Part shown: positions 4,503 to 50,290 of the stretch, piece after piece
Position numbering within the stretch: position 1 is the first letter of the stretch
How the letters are laid out: the number at the start of each line of letters is the position of its first letter
DNA from: Arthrobacter sp. PGP41
Lineage (GTDB): Bacteria; Actinomycetota; Actinomycetes; Actinomycetales; Micrococcaceae
NCBI RefSeq assembly: GCF_002953935.1
Contig: NZ_CP026514.1
Coordinates: 3,844,001-3,908,000 of the forward strand
Direction: 5' to 3'
Length of the DNA: 64,000 nucleotides
The notes under the pieces: model-generated
Seen by the model: the letters and a program-made list of their open reading frames with translations, nothing else
Told to the model about the DNA's origin: nothing
Databases searched by the model: none
Made by a program: the position numbers and the translations under genes

Positions 4503-7151
4503 ATGACGGACAGCACCCTCCTCAGATGGCTCGACGGCGAGGCGCCTGCGCAGATCAGCGGCGGAACCACCTGGGGAATGCCCTTTGCCCGCGGCTCCGT
4601 CCCTTCAGCCCGGGCCCTTTCGGTCTCGGACGCCAGCGGATCCCCGGTTGCCGCCCAGGCCTGGCCCCTGGCCACGTGGCCCGACGGTTCCCTCAAATGG
4701 GCGGGCATCGCGCTTCCCGCCACGGACTCGCCGTCGGAGGGTTACCTCGTAAGGTCCGACGGCGGCGCGTCACCCCGCGAAGGCAATCTCCCGCCGTCGG
4801 GCGCCACCGACGTCACCGTCACGGAAACCGCTGACACCCTCACAGTGGACACCGGCGCCCTCCAGATGGTGCTCAACCGCGGCGGCTCTACCCTGTTCAG
4901 CAGCCTCACCCGCAACGGCACGGAAGTGGCACGGGACGCCCGCCTCGCCAGCCTCCTGCAGGACGGAATATCCGAGGGCCCCGGCACCTTTAGCCGCGAG
5001 GCCTTCACCGGCGAGGTCACCGCCGTCACGCTTGAACAAAGCGGACCCGTTCGCGCCGTGGTGCGGCTGGAGGGGCGGCACCGGCCGGACGCTCCCGGAA
5101 GCAGCCGCCGGGACTGGCTCCCGTTCGTGGTCCGGTTCTACTTCTACGCCAACGCCCGCAGTGTCCGGATGGTCCACTCCTTTATCTGGGACGGCGACGC
5201 GGAGCTGGATTTCCTCGCCGGTCTTGGCGTCCGGTTCAGCGTGCCGCTGGCGTCCGAACTCCATGACCGCCACGTCCGCATTGCAGGGGCCGACGGCGGC
5301 TTCCTCACCGAAGGGGTCCGCGGCCTGACCGGCCTGCGGCGGGACCCCGGCACGGACGTCCGCCGGGCGCAGGTGGAGGGCAGGCCCACCCCGCCGCCCG
5401 CGGCATGGAACCCGGAGGTGTCGGAGCGGCTGCATTTGATCCCGGCGTGGAACGACTTTACGCTCAGCCAGCTCAGCGCCGACGGCTTCGAGCTGCGCAA
5501 GCGCACCGCGCCCGGCCACGCCTGGGTGGGGATCTCCGGCGGGACAAGGTCGGCCGGCTTCTGCTCGCTAAGCGATGCCCGGGGCGGTTTTGGTGTTGGC
5601 ATCAAGGACTTCTGGCAGTCGCACCCCGGCCAACTGGACATCCGGAACGCTGCGACTGATGAAGCGGCCCTGACCGCGTGGCTGTACTCCCCCGAGGCCC
5701 AGCCGATGGACCTGCGCTTCTACCACGACGGCTTGGGCCAGGACACCTTCGAGGAACAGCTCGAGGGGCTCGAAATCACGTACGAGGATTACGAACCGGG
5801 ATTCGGCAATCCCACCGGAATTGCCCGCACGCATGAGTTAACCCTGTTCGCGTACGAGGGCACGCCGTCAACGGAAAGCCTGGCGGCCGATGCCCTGGCC
5901 GTTTCCACCCCCGCCCTGCTCCAGGCCGCCCCGGAGTACCTGCACTCCGTGGGCGTCTTCGGCGACTGGGCTCCCGTGGACCGCAGCACGCCTGCCCGCG
6001 CGGAGCTTGAGGACCACCTGGACTTCCTCTTCGATTTCTACGCCGGCCAGGTGGAGCAGCGCCGCTGGTACGGGTTCTGGAACTACGGCGACGTGATGCA
6101 CACCTACGACCTTGACCGGCACGTATGGCGGTATGACGTGGGCGGCTACGCATGGGACAACTCCGAGCTCTCCCCCGACCTGTGGCTCTGGTACTCGTAC
6201 CTGCGCTCCGGCCGGGCGGACATCTTCCGGTTCGCCGAGGCAATGACCCGGCACACCGGGGAAGTGGACGTCTACCACCTGGGAGCCTGGCGCGGCCTCG
6301 GCTCCCGGCACAACGTCCAGCACTGGGGCTGCAGCGCCAAGCAGCTCCGCATCAGCACGCCCGCCTACCGCCGCTTCTACTACTACCTCACAGCGGACGA
6401 ACGGACCGGGGACCTGCTCACCGAACTGGTGGACAGCGACCAGAACTTCCTGGGCCTGGATCCCGTGCGCAAGGTCCGGCCCGACGCCGACACATACCGG
6501 CCGGACCGCGGCGCCCTGGGGGTGGGTCTCGGCACGGACTGGGGTTCGCTCGCAGCCACCTGGCTTACGGACTGGGAACGCACGGGCAACCCCCGGTCCC
6601 GGGACCGCCTCCTGGGCACCATGGCAGACATTGGCGCCCTCAAGTACGGCTTCCTCACCGGCGAGGCGCTGTACGACCTGGACAAGGGCCGGTTCGACAC
6701 CGGCCGCGAGCTGCTCCAGGTCTCCCACCTCAGTGCAGTGTTCGGGCTGGTGGAGATCTGCAGCGAACTGGTGGACCTGGTCCCCGATCCGGACTTTGAG
6801 CGGGCGTGGCTGCAATACTGCCGGCTCTTCCTGGCCACGAAGGAGGAACAGATGGACGCCGTGGGCCAGCCGCTTGAGGGCATCCACCTCACGCAGGCGC
6901 ACAGCCGGCTGACCGCCTATGCTGCGGCCCGGCTGGATGACCCCGAACTCGCTGCCCGGGCCTGGGCGGGCTTTGCCGAAGGAGGCGAACACCTCAATCA
7001 CGGGTCGGCGTTCACGCTCCGGGAGATCGAGCCGCCGCACGTGCTGCTGCGCGTGCACGAGGCACCCACCGTCTCCACCAACGACACCTCCCAGTTCGGC
7101 CTGGCGGTGATCCAGAACCTGGCGCTGATCGGCAAGCACCTCCCCGGCTGA
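4503..7151 (+). CDS. PcRGLX/YetA-like exo-rhamnogalacturonan lyase family protein
   Basis: 882 residues from the ATG at 4503; a GTG three codons upstream (4494) is an alternative. The protein matches in length and organisation the family of Penicillium exo-rhamnogalacturonan lyase and Bacillus YetA: an N-terminal RIFT-barrel-type domain (TTWGMPFARG followed by WPDGSLKWAGI), a central region with the GFWNYGDVMHTYD segment and a C-terminal alpha-helical region. I see no signal peptide, so it probably acts in the cytosol on short oligosaccharides. A LacI-like operator stands upstream and no transporter is adjacent. The family is recognised from memory of its motifs; the exact substrate is inferred. 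Confidence 0.75.
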   Translation: MTDSTLLRWLDGEAPAQISGGTTWGMPFARGSVPSARALSVSDASGSPVAAQAWPLATWPDGSLKWAGIALPATDSPSEGYLVRSDGGASPREGNLPPSGATDVTVTETADTLTVDTGALQMVLNRGGSTLFSSLTRNGTEVARDARLASLLQDGISEGPGTFSREAFTGEVTAVTLEQSGPVRAVVRLEGRHRPDAPGSSRRDWLPFVVRFYFYANARSVRMVHSFIWDGDAELDFLAGLGVRFSVPLASELHDRHVRIAGADGGFLTEGVRGLTGLRRDPGTDVRRAQVEGRPTPPPAAWNPEVSERLHLIPAWNDFTLSQLSADGFELRKRTAPGHAWVGISGGTRSAGFCSLSDARGGFGVGIKDFWQSHPGQLDIRNAATDEAALTAWLYSPEAQPMDLRFYHDGLGQDTFEEQLEGLEITYEDYEPGFGNPTGIARTHELTLFAYEGTPSTESLAADALAVSTPALLQAAPEYLHSVGVFGDWAPVDRSTPARAELEDHLDFLFDFYAGQVEQRRWYGFWNYGDVMHTYDLDRHVWRYDVGGYAWDNSELSPDLWLWYSYLRSGRADIFRFAEAMTRHTGEVDVYHLGAWRGLGSRHNVQHWGCSAKQLRISTPAYRRFYYYLTADERTGDLLTELVDSDQNFLGLDPVRKVRPDADTYRPDRGALGVGLGTDWGSLAATWLTDWERTGNPRSRDRLLGTMADIGALKYGFLTGEALYDLDKGRFDTGRELLQVSHLSAVFGLVEICSELVDLVPDPDFERAWLQYCRLFLATKEEQMDAVGQPLEGIHLTQAHSRLTAYAAARLDDPELAARAWAGFAEGGEHLNHGSAFTLREIEPPHVLLRVHEAPTVSTNDTSQFGLAVIQNLALIGKHLPG

Positions 7152-44839: not shown

Positions 44840-46510
44840 GTGGCACGCGGCGATGGAAAACTTTCCCATGATCTTCTCCCTGGCGAAAAAGGCCCGCAGG
44901 ACGCTTGTGGCGTCTTCGGAGTCTGGGCACCAGGTGAAGAGGTAGCAAAACTTACCTATTACGGGCTGTATGCACTACAGCACCGCGGTCAGGAGTCGGC
45001 TGGTATTGCCACCAGCGACGGCAAGCGGATCAACGTCTACAAGGACATGGGACTCGTCTCCCAGGTCTTCGACGAGACCACGCTGAACACCCTGACCGGG
45101 CACCTGGCGGTGGGACACTGCCGCTACTCCACCACCGGCGCAAGCCACTGGGCCAACGCGCAGCCCACCCTCGGCGCCACCAGCACCGGCACCGTCGCCC
45201 TGGCACACAACGGCAACCTGACCAACACGGCCGAGCTGAACGCCATGATCCAGGAGCGCCACGGCGACCAGCTCACCGGCGAAATGAAGCAGGGCAACAC
45301 CTCGGACACCGCCCTGGTCACCGCCCTGCTGGAGGGCGAGCCGGGGAAGAGCCTCGAAGAGACGGCCATCGAGCTCCTGCCCAAGATCAAGGGCGGCTTC
45401 TGTTTCGTCTTCATGGACGAAGGCACGCTGTACGCCGCCAGGGACACCTACGGCATCCGCCCGCTGGTCCTGGGCCGGCTGGAACGCGGCTGGGTTGTGG
45501 CCTCCGAGCAGTCCGGCCTCGCCACCGTGGGCGCCAGCTTTATCCGCGAAATCGAGCCCGGTGAGTTCATCGCCATCGACGAGCAGGGCGTACGTTCCCA
45601 GCGCTTTGCAGAGGCGACGCCGGCCGGCTGCGTTTTCGAGTACGTCTACCTTGCGCGTCCGGACGCCGCCATTGCCGGCCGCTCCGTCTATGAGTCCCGC
45701 GTGGAGATGGGCCGCCAGCTGGCCCGCGAAAACACGCAGGTGGCGGACATCGTCATCCCGGTACCGGAGTCCGGCACGCCGGCGGCCGTGGGCTACGCCG
45801 AGGAATCCGGGATTCCCTTTGCACACGGCTTCGTCAAGAACTCCTACGTGGGCCGCACGTTCATCCAGCCCTCGCAGACCCTCCGCCAGCTGGGCATCCG
45901 GCTCAAGCTCAACGCCCTCGAGTCCGTGATCCGCGGCAAGCGCGTTGTGGTGGTGGACGATTCCATCGTCCGCGGGAACACCCAGCGGGCCATTGTCCGC
46001 ATGCTCCGCGAGGCCGGGGCCGCCGCCGTCCACGTCAAAATTTCCTCCCCGCCCGTGCAGTGGCCGTGCTTCTATGGCATCGACTTCGCCTCACGGGCCG
46101 AGCTGATTGCCAACGGCGCCACCATCGACGAGATCTCGCAGGCCATCGGGGCGGACTCGCTGGCCTACATCTCCGAGGACGGGATGATCGGCGCCACCCG
46201 GCAGCCGCGGGAGCGGCTCTGCACTGCCTGCTTCACCGGCAAGTACCCCATCGAGCTTCCGGGTGCGGACAAGCTGGGCAAGAACCTGCTGGAGCGGACG
46301 GACCTCGGCGGCCTCAAGCCCTCGCCGTCGGCCCTTCCGGGCGCAACAGCGGCCCTCTCCGTCGATTCCCAGGAAGATCCTGCGGAGAAGTCCGGCGCCA
46401 CCGGTTGCGATCCTGGACCGGACTCCGAGTTTGAAAACCTGCTGACCGACGCCGACCTCGTGCCGGACGCACACGCCGCCACCGGCGCTGACAAGAAAGA
46501 GTCCGTATGA
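44840..46510 (+). CDS. purF: Amidophosphoribosyltransferase
   Basis: 556 residues. A 22-residue propeptide precedes the Ntn nucleophile Cys23 (DACGVFG). Glutaminase motifs ALQHRGQESAGIA and GHCRYSTTGA follow, and the PRPP loop VVVVDDSIVRGNT. Cysteines in WPCFYGID and LCTACFTG suggest the Fe-S-bearing Bacillus type. About 60 extra residues at the C-terminus are acidic and low in complexity. Catalyses the first step of purine synthesis. GTG start at 44840; overlaps purM by 4 bases. Confidence 0.96.
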   Translation: MARGDGKLSHDLLPGEKGPQDACGVFGVWAPGEEVAKLTYYGLYALQHRGQESAGIATSDGKRINVYKDMGLVSQVFDETTLNTLTGHLAVGHCRYSTTGASHWANAQPTLGATSTGTVALAHNGNLTNTAELNAMIQERHGDQLTGEMKQGNTSDTALVTALLEGEPGKSLEETAIELLPKIKGGFCFVFMDEGTLYAARDTYGIRPLVLGRLERGWVVASEQSGLATVGASFIREIEPGEFIAIDEQGVRSQRFAEATPAGCVFEYVYLARPDAAIAGRSVYESRVEMGRQLARENTQVADIVIPVPESGTPAAVGYAEESGIPFAHGFVKNSYVGRTFIQPSQTLRQLGIRLKLNALESVIRGKRVVVVDDSIVRGNTQRAIVRMLREAGAAAVHVKISSPPVQWPCFYGIDFASRAELIANGATIDEISQAIGADSLAYISEDGMIGATRQPRERLCTACFTGKYPIELPGADKLGKNLLERTDLGGLKPSPSALPGATAALSVDSQEDPAEKSGATGCDPGPDSEFENLLTDADLVPDAHAATGADKKESV

Positions 46511-47667
46511 CTTCCGCTGCCCCCGCCCCTGGCAACACCCCCGGTAACGCCGCCGGCATCACCTACGCCTCAGCCGGCGTTGACGTTGAAGCCGGGGACC
46601 GCGCCGTCGAGCTGATGAAGGGGGCCGTCAAGGCCACCCACAACTCCTCGGTGATCGGCGGGGTGGGCGGGTTCGCCGGGCTCTACGACGTCTCCCGTCT
46701 CCTGACCTTCAAGAGGCCGCTGCTGGCCACGTCCACCGACGGCGTGGGCACCAAGGTTGCCATCGCCCAGGCCATGGACATCCACGACACCATCGGCTTC
46801 GACCTCGTCGGCATGGTGGTGGATGACATCGTCGTGGTTGGCGCTGAGCCGCTGTACATGACCGACTACATCGCCTGCGGCAAGGTGGTGCCGGAGCGCA
46901 TCGCCGATATTGTCCGCGGCATCGCAGCAGCATGCTCCGTGGCCGGAACGGCCCTGGTGGGCGGTGAAACCGCCGAACACCCCGGCCTGCTGGGCGAGCA
47001 CGAGTACGACGTCGCAGGCGCGGCCACCGGCGTGGTTGAAGCCGACCAGCTCCTGGGTCCGGACCGCGTGCGCGCCGGTGACGTGGTCATCGGCATGGCC
47101 TCCTCCGGCTTGCACTCCAACGGCTATTCCCTGGTCCGCCGCGTGATCAACCACGCCGGCTGGGCACTGGACCGCCAGGTCTCCGAACTGGGCCGCACCC
47201 TGGGCGAGGAACTTCTCGAGCCCACCCGCGTCTACGCTGCCGACTGCCTGGACCTGGCCCGCGCCTTCCCTGTCACGGGCTCGTCTGCCGTGCACGGCTT
47301 CAGCCACGTCACCGGCGGAGGCCTCGCCGCCAACCTGGCCCGCGTGCTCCCCCAGGGCCTCGTGGCCACCGTGGACCGCAACACCTGGGAGCTGCCTGCC
47401 ATCTTCAAGCTGGTGTCCGAACTGGGCAACGTGCCGCTGGCGGACCTGGAACGCACCCTGAACCTGGGTGTGGGCATGGTGGCCATCGTGTCCGCCGAAG
47501 CCGCGGACGCTGCAGTGGCCCGCCTCAACGACCGCGGCCTGCTGTCCTGGGTCATGGGCACCGTCACCGAGGATTCGGATGCAATCCTCAAGACCGGGCC
47601 GGACTACGTCCAGGGCGCCAAGGGCGTAAACGGCGGCGCGGTTCGCCTGGTCAACACCTACGCCTAA
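46507..47667 (+). CDS. purM: Phosphoribosylformylglycinamidine cyclo-ligase
   Basis: 386 residues. Typical parts: TYASAGVDVEAGDRAVELMK, VIGGVGGFAGLYD, LLATSTDGVGTKV, GETAEHPG, SSGLHSNGYSLVR and HVTGGGLAANLARVLP. ATP-dependent ring closure to AIR. ATG at 46507 overlaps purF. Its last 30 codons are repeated in decayed form at 48.5 kb. Confidence 0.96.
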   Translation: MTSAAPAPGNTPGNAAGITYASAGVDVEAGDRAVELMKGAVKATHNSSVIGGVGGFAGLYDVSRLLTFKRPLLATSTDGVGTKVAIAQAMDIHDTIGFDLVGMVVDDIVVVGAEPLYMTDYIACGKVVPERIADIVRGIAAACSVAGTALVGGETAEHPGLLGEHEYDVAGAATGVVEADQLLGPDRVRAGDVVIGMASSGLHSNGYSLVRRVINHAGWALDRQVSELGRTLGEELLEPTRVYAADCLDLARAFPVTGSSAVHGFSHVTGGGLAANLARVLPQGLVATVDRNTWELPAIFKLVSELGNVPLADLERTLNLGVGMVAIVSAEAADAAVARLNDRGLLSWVMGTVTEDSDAILKTGPDYVQGAKGVNGGAVRLVNTYA

Positions 47668-47674
47668 ATACTCC

Positions 47675-47734
47675 ATCGAGTGCTCCGTACCGGCCGCTTT
47701 GCCCCGTCAAAGCGGCAGATAAGGAGCACTCGAT
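47675..47734 (+). terminator. Two-tier stem-loop after purM
   Basis: Outer stem ATCGAGTGCTCC / GGAGCACTCGAT and inner stem GCCGCTTTG / CAAAGCGGC, followed by TTGCTTT. Starts 8 bases after the purM stop. A diverged copy follows the purM fragment at 48606. Confidence 0.85.
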
Positions 47735-47797
47735 TGCTTTAACCGGCGCCGGGGAATGCCCCCAAAACCGGTTATCTGAGATAAAACACTCAGTCCC

Positions 47798-47827
47798 TTG
47801 ACTGCTAAGCATGCTTACCTTTAGGCT
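47798..47827 (+). promoter_or_regulatory. Promoter with TAAGCATGCTTA operator, first copy
   Basis: TTGACT (47798), 18-bp spacer, TAGGCT (47822). The spacer contains the perfect palindrome TAAGCATGCTTA (47806-47817), placed where a bound repressor would block polymerase or a MerR-type activator would remodel the spacer. Confidence 0.6.
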
Positions 47828-48081
47828 TTTAAATGGAAGTGCAGCACAGAAGGTCAACGCGGGGTTTTCGAGAGCGTAATGCCCGCCCCGCCCGAGTCCG
47901 GCGGCAAGTGCCCGCTCGGTTGGACCGCCTTCCCCCGCCGATCCGGCGGATGCCAAGAAGCAACCATAAAGACGTCCGGTACCTGCGCCGTGCAGCAGCA
48001 CGGCATCAGGCAGTCAACATGCCCAATTGCGGGCGGACTGCCCACAGGGGCACCGGGGCAGATATCAAGGGAGCGAAAATT
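47828..48081 (+). other. Long 5' leader of the first secreted-protein gene
   Basis: About 250 transcribed but apparently untranslated bases between promoter and start codon, GC-rich with several possible hairpins (for example CGCCGATCCGGCG). A stretch near 47951 resembles one near 48885 in the second copy (CCAAGAAGCAACCA and CCAAGAATGCAACCA). No known riboswitch recognised. Confidence 0.45.
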
Positions 48082-48387
48082 ATGTCAGTTCTGAAGAAAA
48101 CCACCGCCGCAGCCGCTGGAAGCCTGTTCTTGCTGGGCGCCGTCGCCGGCCCTTCACACGCAGCGAACAACAATACGTTGAATGACGGCCTTGTAAATGT
48201 CACGGTCGGCGACATCACTGTCGAGGATGCCGTGGACGTGAATGTTGCAGCCAGTGTCGCAGCAACCCTCTGCGATGTCGCCGACATCGGATCGGTCGCA
48301 GTTCTTGGCGAAGCAGTAGACGCCACCGGCACCGAACAGACCGTCTGCGATACCGCCACCGGCCCGGTGCGCATCGTGAATAACTAG
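48082..48387 (+). CDS. Small secreted two-cysteine protein, copy 1
   Basis: 101 residues: a Sec signal peptide (MSVLKKTTAAAAGSLFLLGA, cleavage after SHA at about 27) and a 74-residue mature part of short Val-rich strands, LVNVTVGDITVEDAVDVNV, with two cysteines (in ATLCDVAD and QTVCDTAT) that should pair. Start ATG at 48082 behind AAGGGAG. Shares its signal peptide, strand pattern and cysteines with the gene at 49003. No family recognised; secreted beta-structure or surface protein is all that can be said. Confidence 0.8.
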   Translation: MSVLKKTTAAAAGSLFLLGAVAGPSHAANNNTLNDGLVNVTVGDITVEDAVDVNVAASVAATLCDVADIGSVAVLGEAVDATGTEQTVCDTATGPVRIVNN

Positions 48388-48460
48388 CAGTTCAGCAGGC
48401 TCCACGGGGGACATGCCACACAGCGCATGGCGCAGCGTCCCGCAATTCCAAGCCTTGCCC

Positions 48461-48489
48461 AAGGGCCCCAGCCACCGGCTGGGGCCCTT
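48461..48489 (+). terminator. Rho-independent-like terminator after copy 1
   Basis: Perfect 13-bp stem AAGGGCCCCAGCC / GGCTGGGGCCCTT with an ACC loop, then TCTG. Confidence 0.85.
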
Positions 48490-48507
48490 CTGTGCGCAAG
48501 CCAACCC

Positions 48508-48597
48508 CGGGGTCCACCCTCAAATCCGCCCCTGATACATGCCGGGCGCCAAGGCGTGGACGACGGCGCGGTTAGCCTGGTCAATACCTACGCCTGA
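48508..48597 (+). pseudogene. Duplicated 3' fragment of purM
   Basis: About 90 bases that align with the end of purM (47579-47667): GGCGCCAAG, GGCGCGGTT, GCCTGGTCAA and ACCTACGCCT occur in the same order and spacing. A missing base shifts the frame once; the tail then reads DDGAVSLVNTYA and a stop, against NGGAVRLVNTYA in purM. It has no start and is a relic of the tandem duplication. Confidence 0.85.
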
Positions 48598-48605
48598 CAA
48601 CTCCG

Positions 48606-48663
48606 TCGGGTGCTCCGTGCCGGCCCTGTTGATCCATCAAAGCGGGAGGTACGGAGCACCCGA
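48606..48663 (+). repeat. Second copy of the post-purM stem-loop
   Basis: TCGGGTGCTCCGT pairs with ACGGAGCACCCGA over 13 bases. The sequence around it (TGCTCCGTGCCGGCC, ATCAAAGCGG) parallels the stem-loop at 47675, with compensating changes that keep the outer stem paired. Confidence 0.8.
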
Positions 48664-48730
48664 TGCGCTTTAGGGCCAGCGGGACACGCTAGCCGTCCTG
48701 CAAGAAAGTGATTGGCGGCACTCTTTTCCC

Positions 48731-48760
48731 TTGACTACTAAGCATACTTAGCATTAGGGT
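48731..48760 (+). promoter_or_regulatory. Promoter with TAAGCATACTTA operator, second copy
   Basis: TTGACT (48731), 18-bp spacer, TAGGGT (48755). TAAGCATACTTA (48739-48750) differs by one base from the palindrome in copy 1 and has the same phasing. Confidence 0.6.
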
Positions 48761-49002
48761 CGAAGCATGGAAGGCAGCCAGGAAATGCTGGGGGACACTT
48801 CTTCCGGGCTCAGTGCTTGAGCCCAGAGCCTGACTCGGAGTTACCCTCAGGCGGACTGACTTTCACCGCACATTTGCGGAACCAAGAATGCAACCACAGA
48901 GACGCTTGTTCCCTGCGCGATACAGCGCGGCCTAATTCAACCCACGAGTCGCATTACGGGTTGCATGAGGCCGGGACCAGGCTCGAATTAAGGGAGCGAA
49001 AA
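48761..49002 (+). other. Long 5' leader of the second secreted-protein gene
   Basis: About 240 bases with no convincing gene, less GC-rich than the first leader and only partly similar to it. It ends in AAGGGAGCGAAAA, the same ribosome site as copy 1. Confidence 0.45.
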
Positions 49003-49302
49003 ATGTCAGTACTGAAGAAAGTTACCGCAGCAGCAGCAGGATCACTGCTTATGGTCGGAGCAATGTCCATGCCCGCACAGGCGGCATCGCCGATTCAGGT
49101 CCAGGACGGCCTGGTGAACGTTGCTGTGGGCGATGTAAACGTCTTGAACAACGTCGACATAGGCGTCGCCGCTCAGGTCGCCGCTGAGATCTGCGGGGTC
49201 AAAGTAGGCCCAGTTGCAGTTCTCGGCAAGGCAGTCGATCGTTCCGGCGAGACGCGGACCGTTTGCGAATCCTCTCAGGGTCCCGTCACCATATCCAACT
49301 AG
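49003..49302 (+). CDS. Small secreted two-cysteine protein, copy 2
   Basis: 99 residues. Signal peptide MSVLKKVTAAAAGSLLMVGA with cleavage after AQA (about 27). The mature part has DGLVNVAVGDVNVLNNVDIG, then AAEICGVKVGPVAVLGKAVD and RTVCESSQGPVTI, so both cysteines of copy 1 are kept in register. Start ATG at 49003. The signal peptide and the first Val-rich segment are the most alike. Secreted; function unknown. Confidence 0.8.
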   Translation: MSVLKKVTAAAAGSLLMVGAMSMPAQAASPIQVQDGLVNVAVGDVNVLNNVDIGVAAQVAAEICGVKVGPVAVLGKAVDRSGETRTVCESSQGPVTISN

Positions 49303-49311
49303 CTCGTCAAG

Positions 49312-49338
49312 AAATGCGCTCCCGCTGGGGGCGCATTT
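49312..49338 (+). terminator. Terminator after copy 2
   Basis: AAATGCGC / GCGCATTT stem extended by CCC/GGG around GCT, followed by CTTTGCTTT; 9 bases after the stop. Confidence 0.85.
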
Positions 49339-49433: not shown

Positions 49434-50290
49434 ATGCCTGCGTCAGCCCTGTCCGTGACAAACCTTTCACTCTCCATCGGCGGGCGGCGATTAGTGCATC
49501 CGGCGACCCTTTTTCCGTGGAGGACAGCGGGAAGATCTCCTATACCGGACAGCTGCAGCGCGTCTGCATTGCCCTTGCCCTAGCCTGCGGCGCCTCCGTG
49601 TTGGTGGCTGGCGAACCCGCCACCGCCCTTGACGCCGTCACCCAACTGAAAGTACTGGCAACCCTTCGCACCTGGGCGGCCGAGGGCCGCAGCCTGCTCT
49701 TGATTACCTACGACCCCACTGCAGCGGCTGCGCTGTGCACGCGCGCCATCGTGATGGAAGCGGCCGGATCGTGGAGCAGGCATCCATGGCTGAGTTGCTC
49801 CAAGACCCGCAACACCCCTACACGCCCCGCCTGGTAACGGCGGGCTCAGCATGATGGGGCCGCTCCCTGCCAACAACATCTCCTTCGCCTACCCCAGGCC
49901 CGGTTTCCGCCAGAAGAGGCCGGCAGGGGCACTCCACAACATCAGGCTGCAGCTTTCACCGGGCACCAGCACGGCCCTGGTGGGGAGCTCCAGCTCCGGG
50001 AAGTCCACCCTGGTGCGGATCCTGCCTGCCCTGGCAAAGCCCGACGCCGGCGGTCACCCTCGGTAGCCGCGCGGTAAGGCCCGGACCTGTCCGGTCCCTG
50101 CGCTGGCACCGGCAGGCGGTGCAGTACATTCCGCAGAACCCGGCCGGAAGCCTCAACCCCGGATGTCTGTTACGCAGCTCCTGGAAGAGCCGCTGCGGCA
50201 GCTAAGGGGCGCCGACGCCAGCGCCCGGAACCGCACTCGCGCTCGCCGCTCTCGGTTCCTGGGGCCGGGCCCGCAGCAGCCCTCGCCGGG
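49434..50290 (+). pseudogene. Remains of a two-domain oligopeptide ABC-transporter ATPase
   Basis: Pieces in different frames: ALSVTNLSLSIGGRRLVH at the ATG 49434 (start of domain 1, Walker A lost); from 49545 GQLQRVCIALALACGASVLVAGEPATALD (signature and Walker B, its Asp now Gly); from 49864 LPANNISFAYPRPGF and a Walker A ALVGSSSSGKSTLVRILPAL (domain 2); then, after a frameshift near 50052, QAVQYIPQNPAGSLNP and, after another near 50162, MSVTQLLEEPLRQLRG. Domain 2 lacks a signature motif and Walker B. The order matches fused Dpp/Opp/Ddp-type ATPases. Clearly inactive. Confidence 0.8.

Follow-up and report, generated by a model that had tools for sequence, protein, structure and literature searches.

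Introduction

Tandem gene duplication that leaves a truncated copy of the flanking gene at the join point is a general phenomenon in bacteria, and mosaic paralogs arise by recombination or gene conversion within a duplicated pair. Hairpins dispersed at the 3'-ends of genes include intrinsic terminators without a T-run and palindromes resembling repetitive extragenic palindromes (REP). The locus analyzed here shares traits with these systems and lies behind purM in Arthrobacter sp. PGP41. The window, i.e. the whole stretch of 64,000 nucleotides (nt) from position 3,844,001 to 3,908,000 of contig NZ_CP026514.1, belongs to a genome of 4.27 Mb in one contig (G000). It contains two adjacent units, each made up of a purM tail, a stem-loop, a promoter, a leader and a gene for a small secreted protein. 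The original prediction, made from the letters of the window, took them for a tandem duplication that copied the purM tail along with the secreted-protein gene. We find that the duplication of a segment containing the purM tail is real and old. Simple duplication is probably not the origin of the second gene: the upstream part of unit 2 was duplicated, and its coding part appears to come from a divergent branch of the family.

Results

Similarity between the two units

The features of the locus are given in window coordinates.

46507..47667, + strand: purM, 386 amino acids, C-terminus VNTYA (Pfam AIRS and AIRS_C)
47675..47734, + strand: stem-loop 1, 60-nt hairpin beginning 7 nt past the purM stop (repeat listing, pairing, member of the hairpin family)
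47798..47827, + strand: promoter 1, TTGACT - 18 nt - TAGGCT (sequence; conservation in relatives)
47805-47817, + strand: palindrome CTAAGCATGCTTA within the spacer of promoter 1 (palindrome search)
47831..48080, + strand: leader 1 (sequence, conservation, leader model)
47958-47974, + strand: conserved AAGCAACCATAAAGACG within leader 1
48082..48387, + strand: secreted protein 1, 101 amino acids (homologs; signal peptide by eye)
48461..48489, + strand: terminator-like hairpin 1, AAGGGCCCCAGCC ... GGCTGGGGCCCTT (sequence; similar hairpins in relatives, by eye)
48518..48597, + strand: second purM tail, fragment with single-base gaps and stop TGA (alignment; corresponding fragment in G416)
48605..48664, + strand: stem-loop 2 (repeat listing, pairing, member of the hairpin family)
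48731..48760, + strand: promoter 2, TTGACT - 18 nt - TAGGGT (sequence)
48738-48751, + strand: palindrome CTAAGCATACTTAG within promoter 2 (palindrome search)
48765..49002, + strand: leader 2 (sister to leader 2 of G416, support 100/100)
49003..49302, + strand: secreted protein 2, 99 amino acids, mature part of the widespread branch (homologs, tree, likelihood tests)
49312..49338, + strand: terminator-like hairpin 2 (by eye closer to the hairpin after the G429b gene than to hairpin 1)

To compare the units, their segments were aligned pairwise, and for each segment the local score was compared with the highest score among 300 dinucleotide-shuffled versions. The stem-loops (60/71 identical; score 40 vs. 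14 for the best shuffle) are not the only similar part, as the purM tails (69/86; 46 vs. 13), the promoters (29/40; 24 vs. 11), the leaders (146/208; 28 vs. 16) and the coding regions (57 vs. 18) also score above every shuffle. Repeats between the units are spaced 923-933 bp in the repeat listing. The proposed order from purM tail to secreted-protein gene is thus found twice, in neighboring direct repeats that are spaced by about 930 bp and are more alike than expected by chance. Scores at or below the best shuffle were obtained for the ribosome-site segment of only 17-19 nt (14 vs. 15), the spacer ahead of the promoter (4 vs. 11) and the stretch past the stop codon (8 vs. 12). The last value indicates that terminators 1 and 2 are unlike in sequence; each gene is followed by a terminator-like hairpin.

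When aligned, the second purM tail has gaps of one base near 48535 and near 48553, and it ends with VNTYA and a stop at 48595-48597. The single-base gaps and the own stop of this fragment agree with the original prediction, and its start lies nearer 48518 than the predicted 48508. In the outer stem of the two hairpins the pair at alignment columns 6 and 57 is changed on both sides, from A-U to G-C, and another pair goes from A-U to G-U; the original prediction had noted that the outer pairing is kept despite changes in both arms. The inner part of both copies contains mismatches.

The pair in related genomes

Protein 1 was searched in 206 genomes of the genus and in a sample of 295 genomes of the family. 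Matches occurred in 25/206 and 9/295 genomes, both counts including the window's own, and the named records encoding close relatives of protein 1 belong to Pseudarthrobacter and Arthrobacter. Synteny was surveyed in stretches from the 25 matching genus genomes. The tandem pair is present in two out of the 206 genomes, the window's own and G416. One copy after purM, with promoter and leader of the unit-1 type, is found in G419, G389, G420, G375, G417, G385, G383 and G311; a more distant family member takes this place in G307, G338 and G470. The gene lies 6.7 kb after purM in G326 and 2.9 kb after it in G445, and in G379 a 3' remnant of the secreted-protein gene is fused to the hairpin. The latter arrangement (L115 4817-5016) looks like the outcome of a deletion between the purM hairpin and the 3' part of the gene. 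Nine genomes (G456, G319, G397, G395, G433, G244, G123, G429, G432) have no purM in the examined stretch. For this pair, no genome showed the two genes apart and lacking a purM fragment.

In G416 a second, more decayed purM tail is followed by hairpin, promoter and leader 2. This tail and stem-loop align with those of the window, and the two leaders 2 are 86% identical (203/236); to the other 16 leaders both are 64-74% identical. The leader tree unites the two leaders 2 with support 100/100 and places the unit-1 leaders in a clade of their own (95/98, 12 rows), so that the duplication looks older than the radiation of the unit-1 leaders. The junction leading from terminator 1 into the purM fragment, found in common with one other genome only (G416), scores 88 between the two genomes against 49.5 for the best of 500 shuffles, and the junction letters ahead of the purM-derived part (GCCAACCCC) match as well. 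The letters GACGAC are common to both purM tails 2 and occur in none of the 45 purM rows examined; all 45 rows tried had matched, and they stand for 42 genomes, since G329, G346 and G319 were repeated.

Away from purM, a decayed purM tail was detected ahead of the ectopic unit of G456 (score 56.5, best of 500 shuffles 52). A junction-like stretch after its terminator scores 50.5 vs. 37, partly from the terminator itself; this stretch behind the G456 gene may be one trace of a unit 2. By eye, an amidase-like frame of G456 (L103 about 4700-4812) apparently ends in the decayed purM tail just before the unit. Upstream of the G319 unit no purM tail was found (score 20, with 417/500 shuffles as high).

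As to the flank, window positions 49434-50066 after gene 2 contain short pieces which by eye resemble a broken ABC-transporter region. A transporter-like start, also recognized by eye, is located at the matching place after gene 1 in G419, G311 and similar relatives.

Origin of the second coding region

The database search yielded 45 homologs for protein 1 and 1024 for protein 2; among the 120 of the latter that were listed, two are named as Nocardioidaceae and Gaiellaceae. In a protein tree of 41 rows protein 2 stands among widespread actinobacterial homologs, and the unit-2 protein of G416 stands with protein 1. In the approximately unbiased (AU) test a tree constrained to unite the two unit-2 proteins is worse by 73.7 log-likelihood units (p 2.9e-5), and one constrained to place protein 2 in the protein-1 group is worse by 28.7 (p 0.027). 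The mature part of protein 2 is identical to that of G429b in 52/71 amino acids, to protein 1 in 38/71 and to the unit-2 protein of G416 in 31/71. For the signal peptides, 14-20 out of 27-28 residues are alike between protein 2 and all eleven genes compared. By tree, identities and AU tests gene 2 is nearest neither to gene 1 nor to the unit-2 gene of G416. The claim of a local duplicate is supported for the upstream part and not for the coding part, and the second gene differs in descent and dating from what the original prediction proposed.

A further hint comes from the course of identity along unit 2. Window and G416 agree in 47-57 of 57-60 positions across most of promoter and leader (38/49 at 48819) and in 50/60 at 48970. 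Within the signal-peptide codons the identity drops, with 38/60 at 49010, and it is 30/52 at 49050. In addition, the metagenome protein P0031 starts with translated leader-2-type sequence, which precedes a protein-1-like gene; its start scores 241 and 205 against the two leaders 2 and at most 43 against the five other leaders tried. Plasmid and phage records gave no match for protein 2. From tree and AU tests, mature identities, identity drop and P0031 together we infer an exchange of the coding part in the unit 2 of the window. An exchange in the unit 2 of G416 instead is less likely in view of P0031 and the unit-1 genes.

The stem-loop family

Nineteen hairpins were aligned (A2), comprising 15 located directly after purM (the window's included), the two unit-2 copies and two dispersed copies; the purM-locus hairpins L036, L041, L050 and L054 were left out together with the broken ones of L049 and L059. 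In this alignment 89.5% of the cells pair compared to 85.6% in shuffles (0/500 as high). Two-sided changes affect 11/27 pairs (1/500 shuffles as high) and 24 cells (0/500), and 24 further pair types occur (5/500). Compensatory change, as expected for a selected hairpin, is thus seen across the 19 sequences, with kinship not fully controlled.

The original prediction proposed selection on the structure alongside decay of the purM fragment. For the window this is not shown, as tail and stem-loop differ between the copies to about the same extent, and the tail is a poor clock. The pairing is nonetheless kept across the 19 hairpins of relatives and dispersed copies, and the purM tail 2 of G416 is visibly more decayed than its hairpin.

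The hairpin model was run on the window's genome, where 150 of 1561 candidates were scored. At least 109 matches reached E 0.1 or better, many of them being one site on both strands, and at least 17 distinct sites had E <1e-7, four of these 17 having been in the model. At 12 of the 17 strong sites an open frame of 110 codons or more ends inside the hairpin or no further than 15 nt from it (such frames are not proven genes), compared to 900/6800 (13%) random positions of the same stretches. The hairpin lies near stop codons and has no T-run, and the scan does not report it. Many dispersed palindromes of one family in a genome are what is expected of REP elements, and the hairpin fits a dispersed terminator-like or REP-like element. 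Among 30 genus purM loci, obtained from 61 genomes, BLAST found the hairpin after purM in 11, two of these matches (L049, L059) being partial.

The G416 hairpins are alike to each other in 55/61 positions and to the window's in 48-51 of 60-61. In tail 2 and hairpin 2 of the window TGACAAC occurs as in G419, and CCGGCC as in G419 and G420. These letters of the own lineage and the likeness of the G416 hairpins hint, as weak evidence, at gene conversion. As a side observation, the hairpins of L029 (1501-1620) and L049 carry an extra GC-rich insert (CCCTGGCCGAGCTTGCGAGGCGAGGG), and the hairpin after purM in L059 contains a related stretch, which looks like the entry of one repeat into another.

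Promoter, palindrome and leader

Promoters 1 and 2 were recognized by conservation only. Terminator-like hairpin 1 is not reported by the scan. The palindrome CTAAGNATNCTTA has nine matches at seven sites in the window's genome and none in the reversed control; a wider form, CTAAGNNNNCTTA, had 13 matches vs. 6 in the reversed control, and the narrower one was used. The five sites outside the units (L013 1501-1513, L014, L015, L017, L018) precede genes matching MarR, LapA, a ferritin-like domain, DUF4383 and PRC/DUF2382 in Pfam. The LapA gene is on the opposite strand, the ferritin-like gene is by eye of the Dps type, and the gene of the MarR-family protein is located at G000:C1 83506-84036.

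The leaders of about 240-250 nt contain a highly conserved GCAACC motif. A hairpin before this motif, compared in 14 sequences, shows a two-sided change in 1/5 pairs, which is not significant (149/500 shuffles as high). Rfam gave three matches with E 0.07-0.65, far below gathering scores and none in a leader. A leader core model (R2) was built from 14 out of 23 leaders, without G397, G395, G433, G244, G123, G470, G326, G311 and G319, and run on the 206 genus genomes under the stricter filters that apply to sets of more than 40 genomes. Of the 32 matches listed, 16 are strong and all of these precede genes of the secreted-protein family. Fourteen of the strong matches are the model's own sequences, only G311 and G319 being independent, and the five G397-type leaders were not recovered; that the leader occurs only before this family is for these reasons a weak test. 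The other 16 matches have E 3.5e-4 to 0.0083, and those of G470 and G326 also precede family members. In the window's genome the strong matches are the two units only.

The secreted proteins

Neither protein matches Pfam, and NCBIfam gave nothing near the cut-off. For protein 2 the best hit among PDB sequences has E 0.83, and an AlphaFold model based on 50 sequences reached a mean predicted local distance difference test (pLDDT) score of 50 and a predicted template modeling (pTM) score of 0.22. Among the titles and abstract openings listed by the literature searches we found no description of the locus, the operator or the hairpin, and none pairing Pseudarthrobacter with purM. The two proteins belong to an uncharacterized family of secreted proteins of about 100 residues with many metagenome homologs. 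Some members of one genus have a leader carrying a conserved motif ahead of genes of this family, possibly under a stress regulon.

Discussion

An old tandem duplication followed by replacement of the coding part of unit 2 in the window's lineage is the explanation we consider probable. A segment from inside the purM 3'-end to just past the terminator of gene 1 was duplicated in tandem, so that purM, hairpin, promoter, leader and gene 1 are followed by purM fragment, hairpin, promoter, leader and gene 2. This arrangement, common to G416, predates on the leader tree the split among the unit-1 leaders, and unit 2 would afterwards have disappeared from some lineages or passed from one to another. 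Recombination at a later time, in the lineage of the window, may have entered within the signal-peptide codons (about 49010-49050) and left past the stop codon, thereby swapping the mature coding region, and probably the terminator, for those of a divergent family member. The outcome would be two different secreted proteins behind similar control regions, each with a sigma-A-like promoter, a palindrome in its spacer and a long leader with a conserved motif. The palindrome is the putative site of a MarR-type regulator, whose regulon might comprise Dps-like, DUF4383, PRC/DUF2382 and LapA stress-type genes as well as the MarR gene itself. The hairpins may end transcription or protect 3'-ends.

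Several observations weigh against this explanation. In the protein tree 22/38 inner branches are under 80 and the bootstrap is not settled; the p of 0.027 in the AU test is moderate, and both AU groups were named after inspection of the tree. The exchange could also have run the other way, with the G416 unit 2 as the replaced one. The junction score of 88 derives partly from purM-derived letters. VNTYA is present in the window's tail 2 and in its own purM and absent from tail 2 of G416 (the purM C-terminus is VNAYA in 43/45 rows and VNGYA in one, L036), which requires gene conversion or coincidence. The unit-1 leaders do not place G000 and G416 as sisters, and no unit-2 trace passing the test was found up to 1500 nt after the gene in 11 other protein-1-type genomes (eight at purM, one remnant, two elsewhere); this requires several losses or a transfer. 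The consensus promoter scan reports neither promoter. The link of the palindrome to MarR rests on co-location, and the operator is putative. Protein 2 also retains 19/28 signal-peptide residues of protein 1.

A tentative extension, possible at best, regards the locus as a cassette site. The constant part, made up of a stress-type promoter, the leader and the start of the signal peptide, would have been duplicated beside purM, and different mature domains of a fast-changing secreted family would be exchanged by recombination through the shared upstream sequence.

That the pair was seen in two of 206 genus genomes, not sisters on the unit-1 leaders, would also be explained if unit 2 came whole by horizontal transfer from a strain already having it and recombined at the purM tail. 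The G456 unit away from purM, with its decayed purM tail, indicates that such units move. Tail 2 and stem-loop 2, however, resemble the window's own purM, G419 and G420 (VNTYA; TGACAAC; CCGGCC) and not G416, as judged by eye from few letters, and we regard a transfer of the whole unit as unlikely. A local tandem duplication with nothing but fast divergence of gene 2 afterwards would account for similarity that reaches into the coding region and for the likeness of the signal peptides. It is hardly favored either, as the AU tests reject protein 2 both with the G416 unit 2 and with the unit-1 group, the mature part is nearest other actinobacterial members, and the terminators are unlike. A hairpin acting as a mobile repeat that took flanking DNA along would suit its dispersal and the composite inserts of some copies, but it is very improbable, since the other hairpins of the genome do not carry the unit, as only two units strongly match the leader model, and the positions beside stop codons fit terminators.

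Comparison with known systems

Overall the locus is a case of ordinary duplication and recombination. Like dispersed 3'-end hairpins and REP elements, the 60-nt palindrome occurs in many copies, often beside stop codons; it differs by its two-tier stem with a strongly conserved outer arm, and the likeness to REP is one of dispersed palindromes. As in MarR-family regulons, the palindrome precedes a MarR-family gene as well as stress-type genes, and in both units the putative operator differs in its position between -35 and -10. With tandem duplications that leave a truncated flank the locus has in common that copy 2 starts inside the upstream gene, with the tail as a scar and a matching junction in two species, whereas here the coding part of copy 2 belongs to another branch of the family. 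A gene fragment at a join point can thus record a duplication and yet mislead about the gene adjacent to it. In this respect the locus comes close to mosaic paralogs: upstream and coding parts appear to have different histories, with the difference that here the direction of the exchange is inferred and the donor would be a divergent family member.

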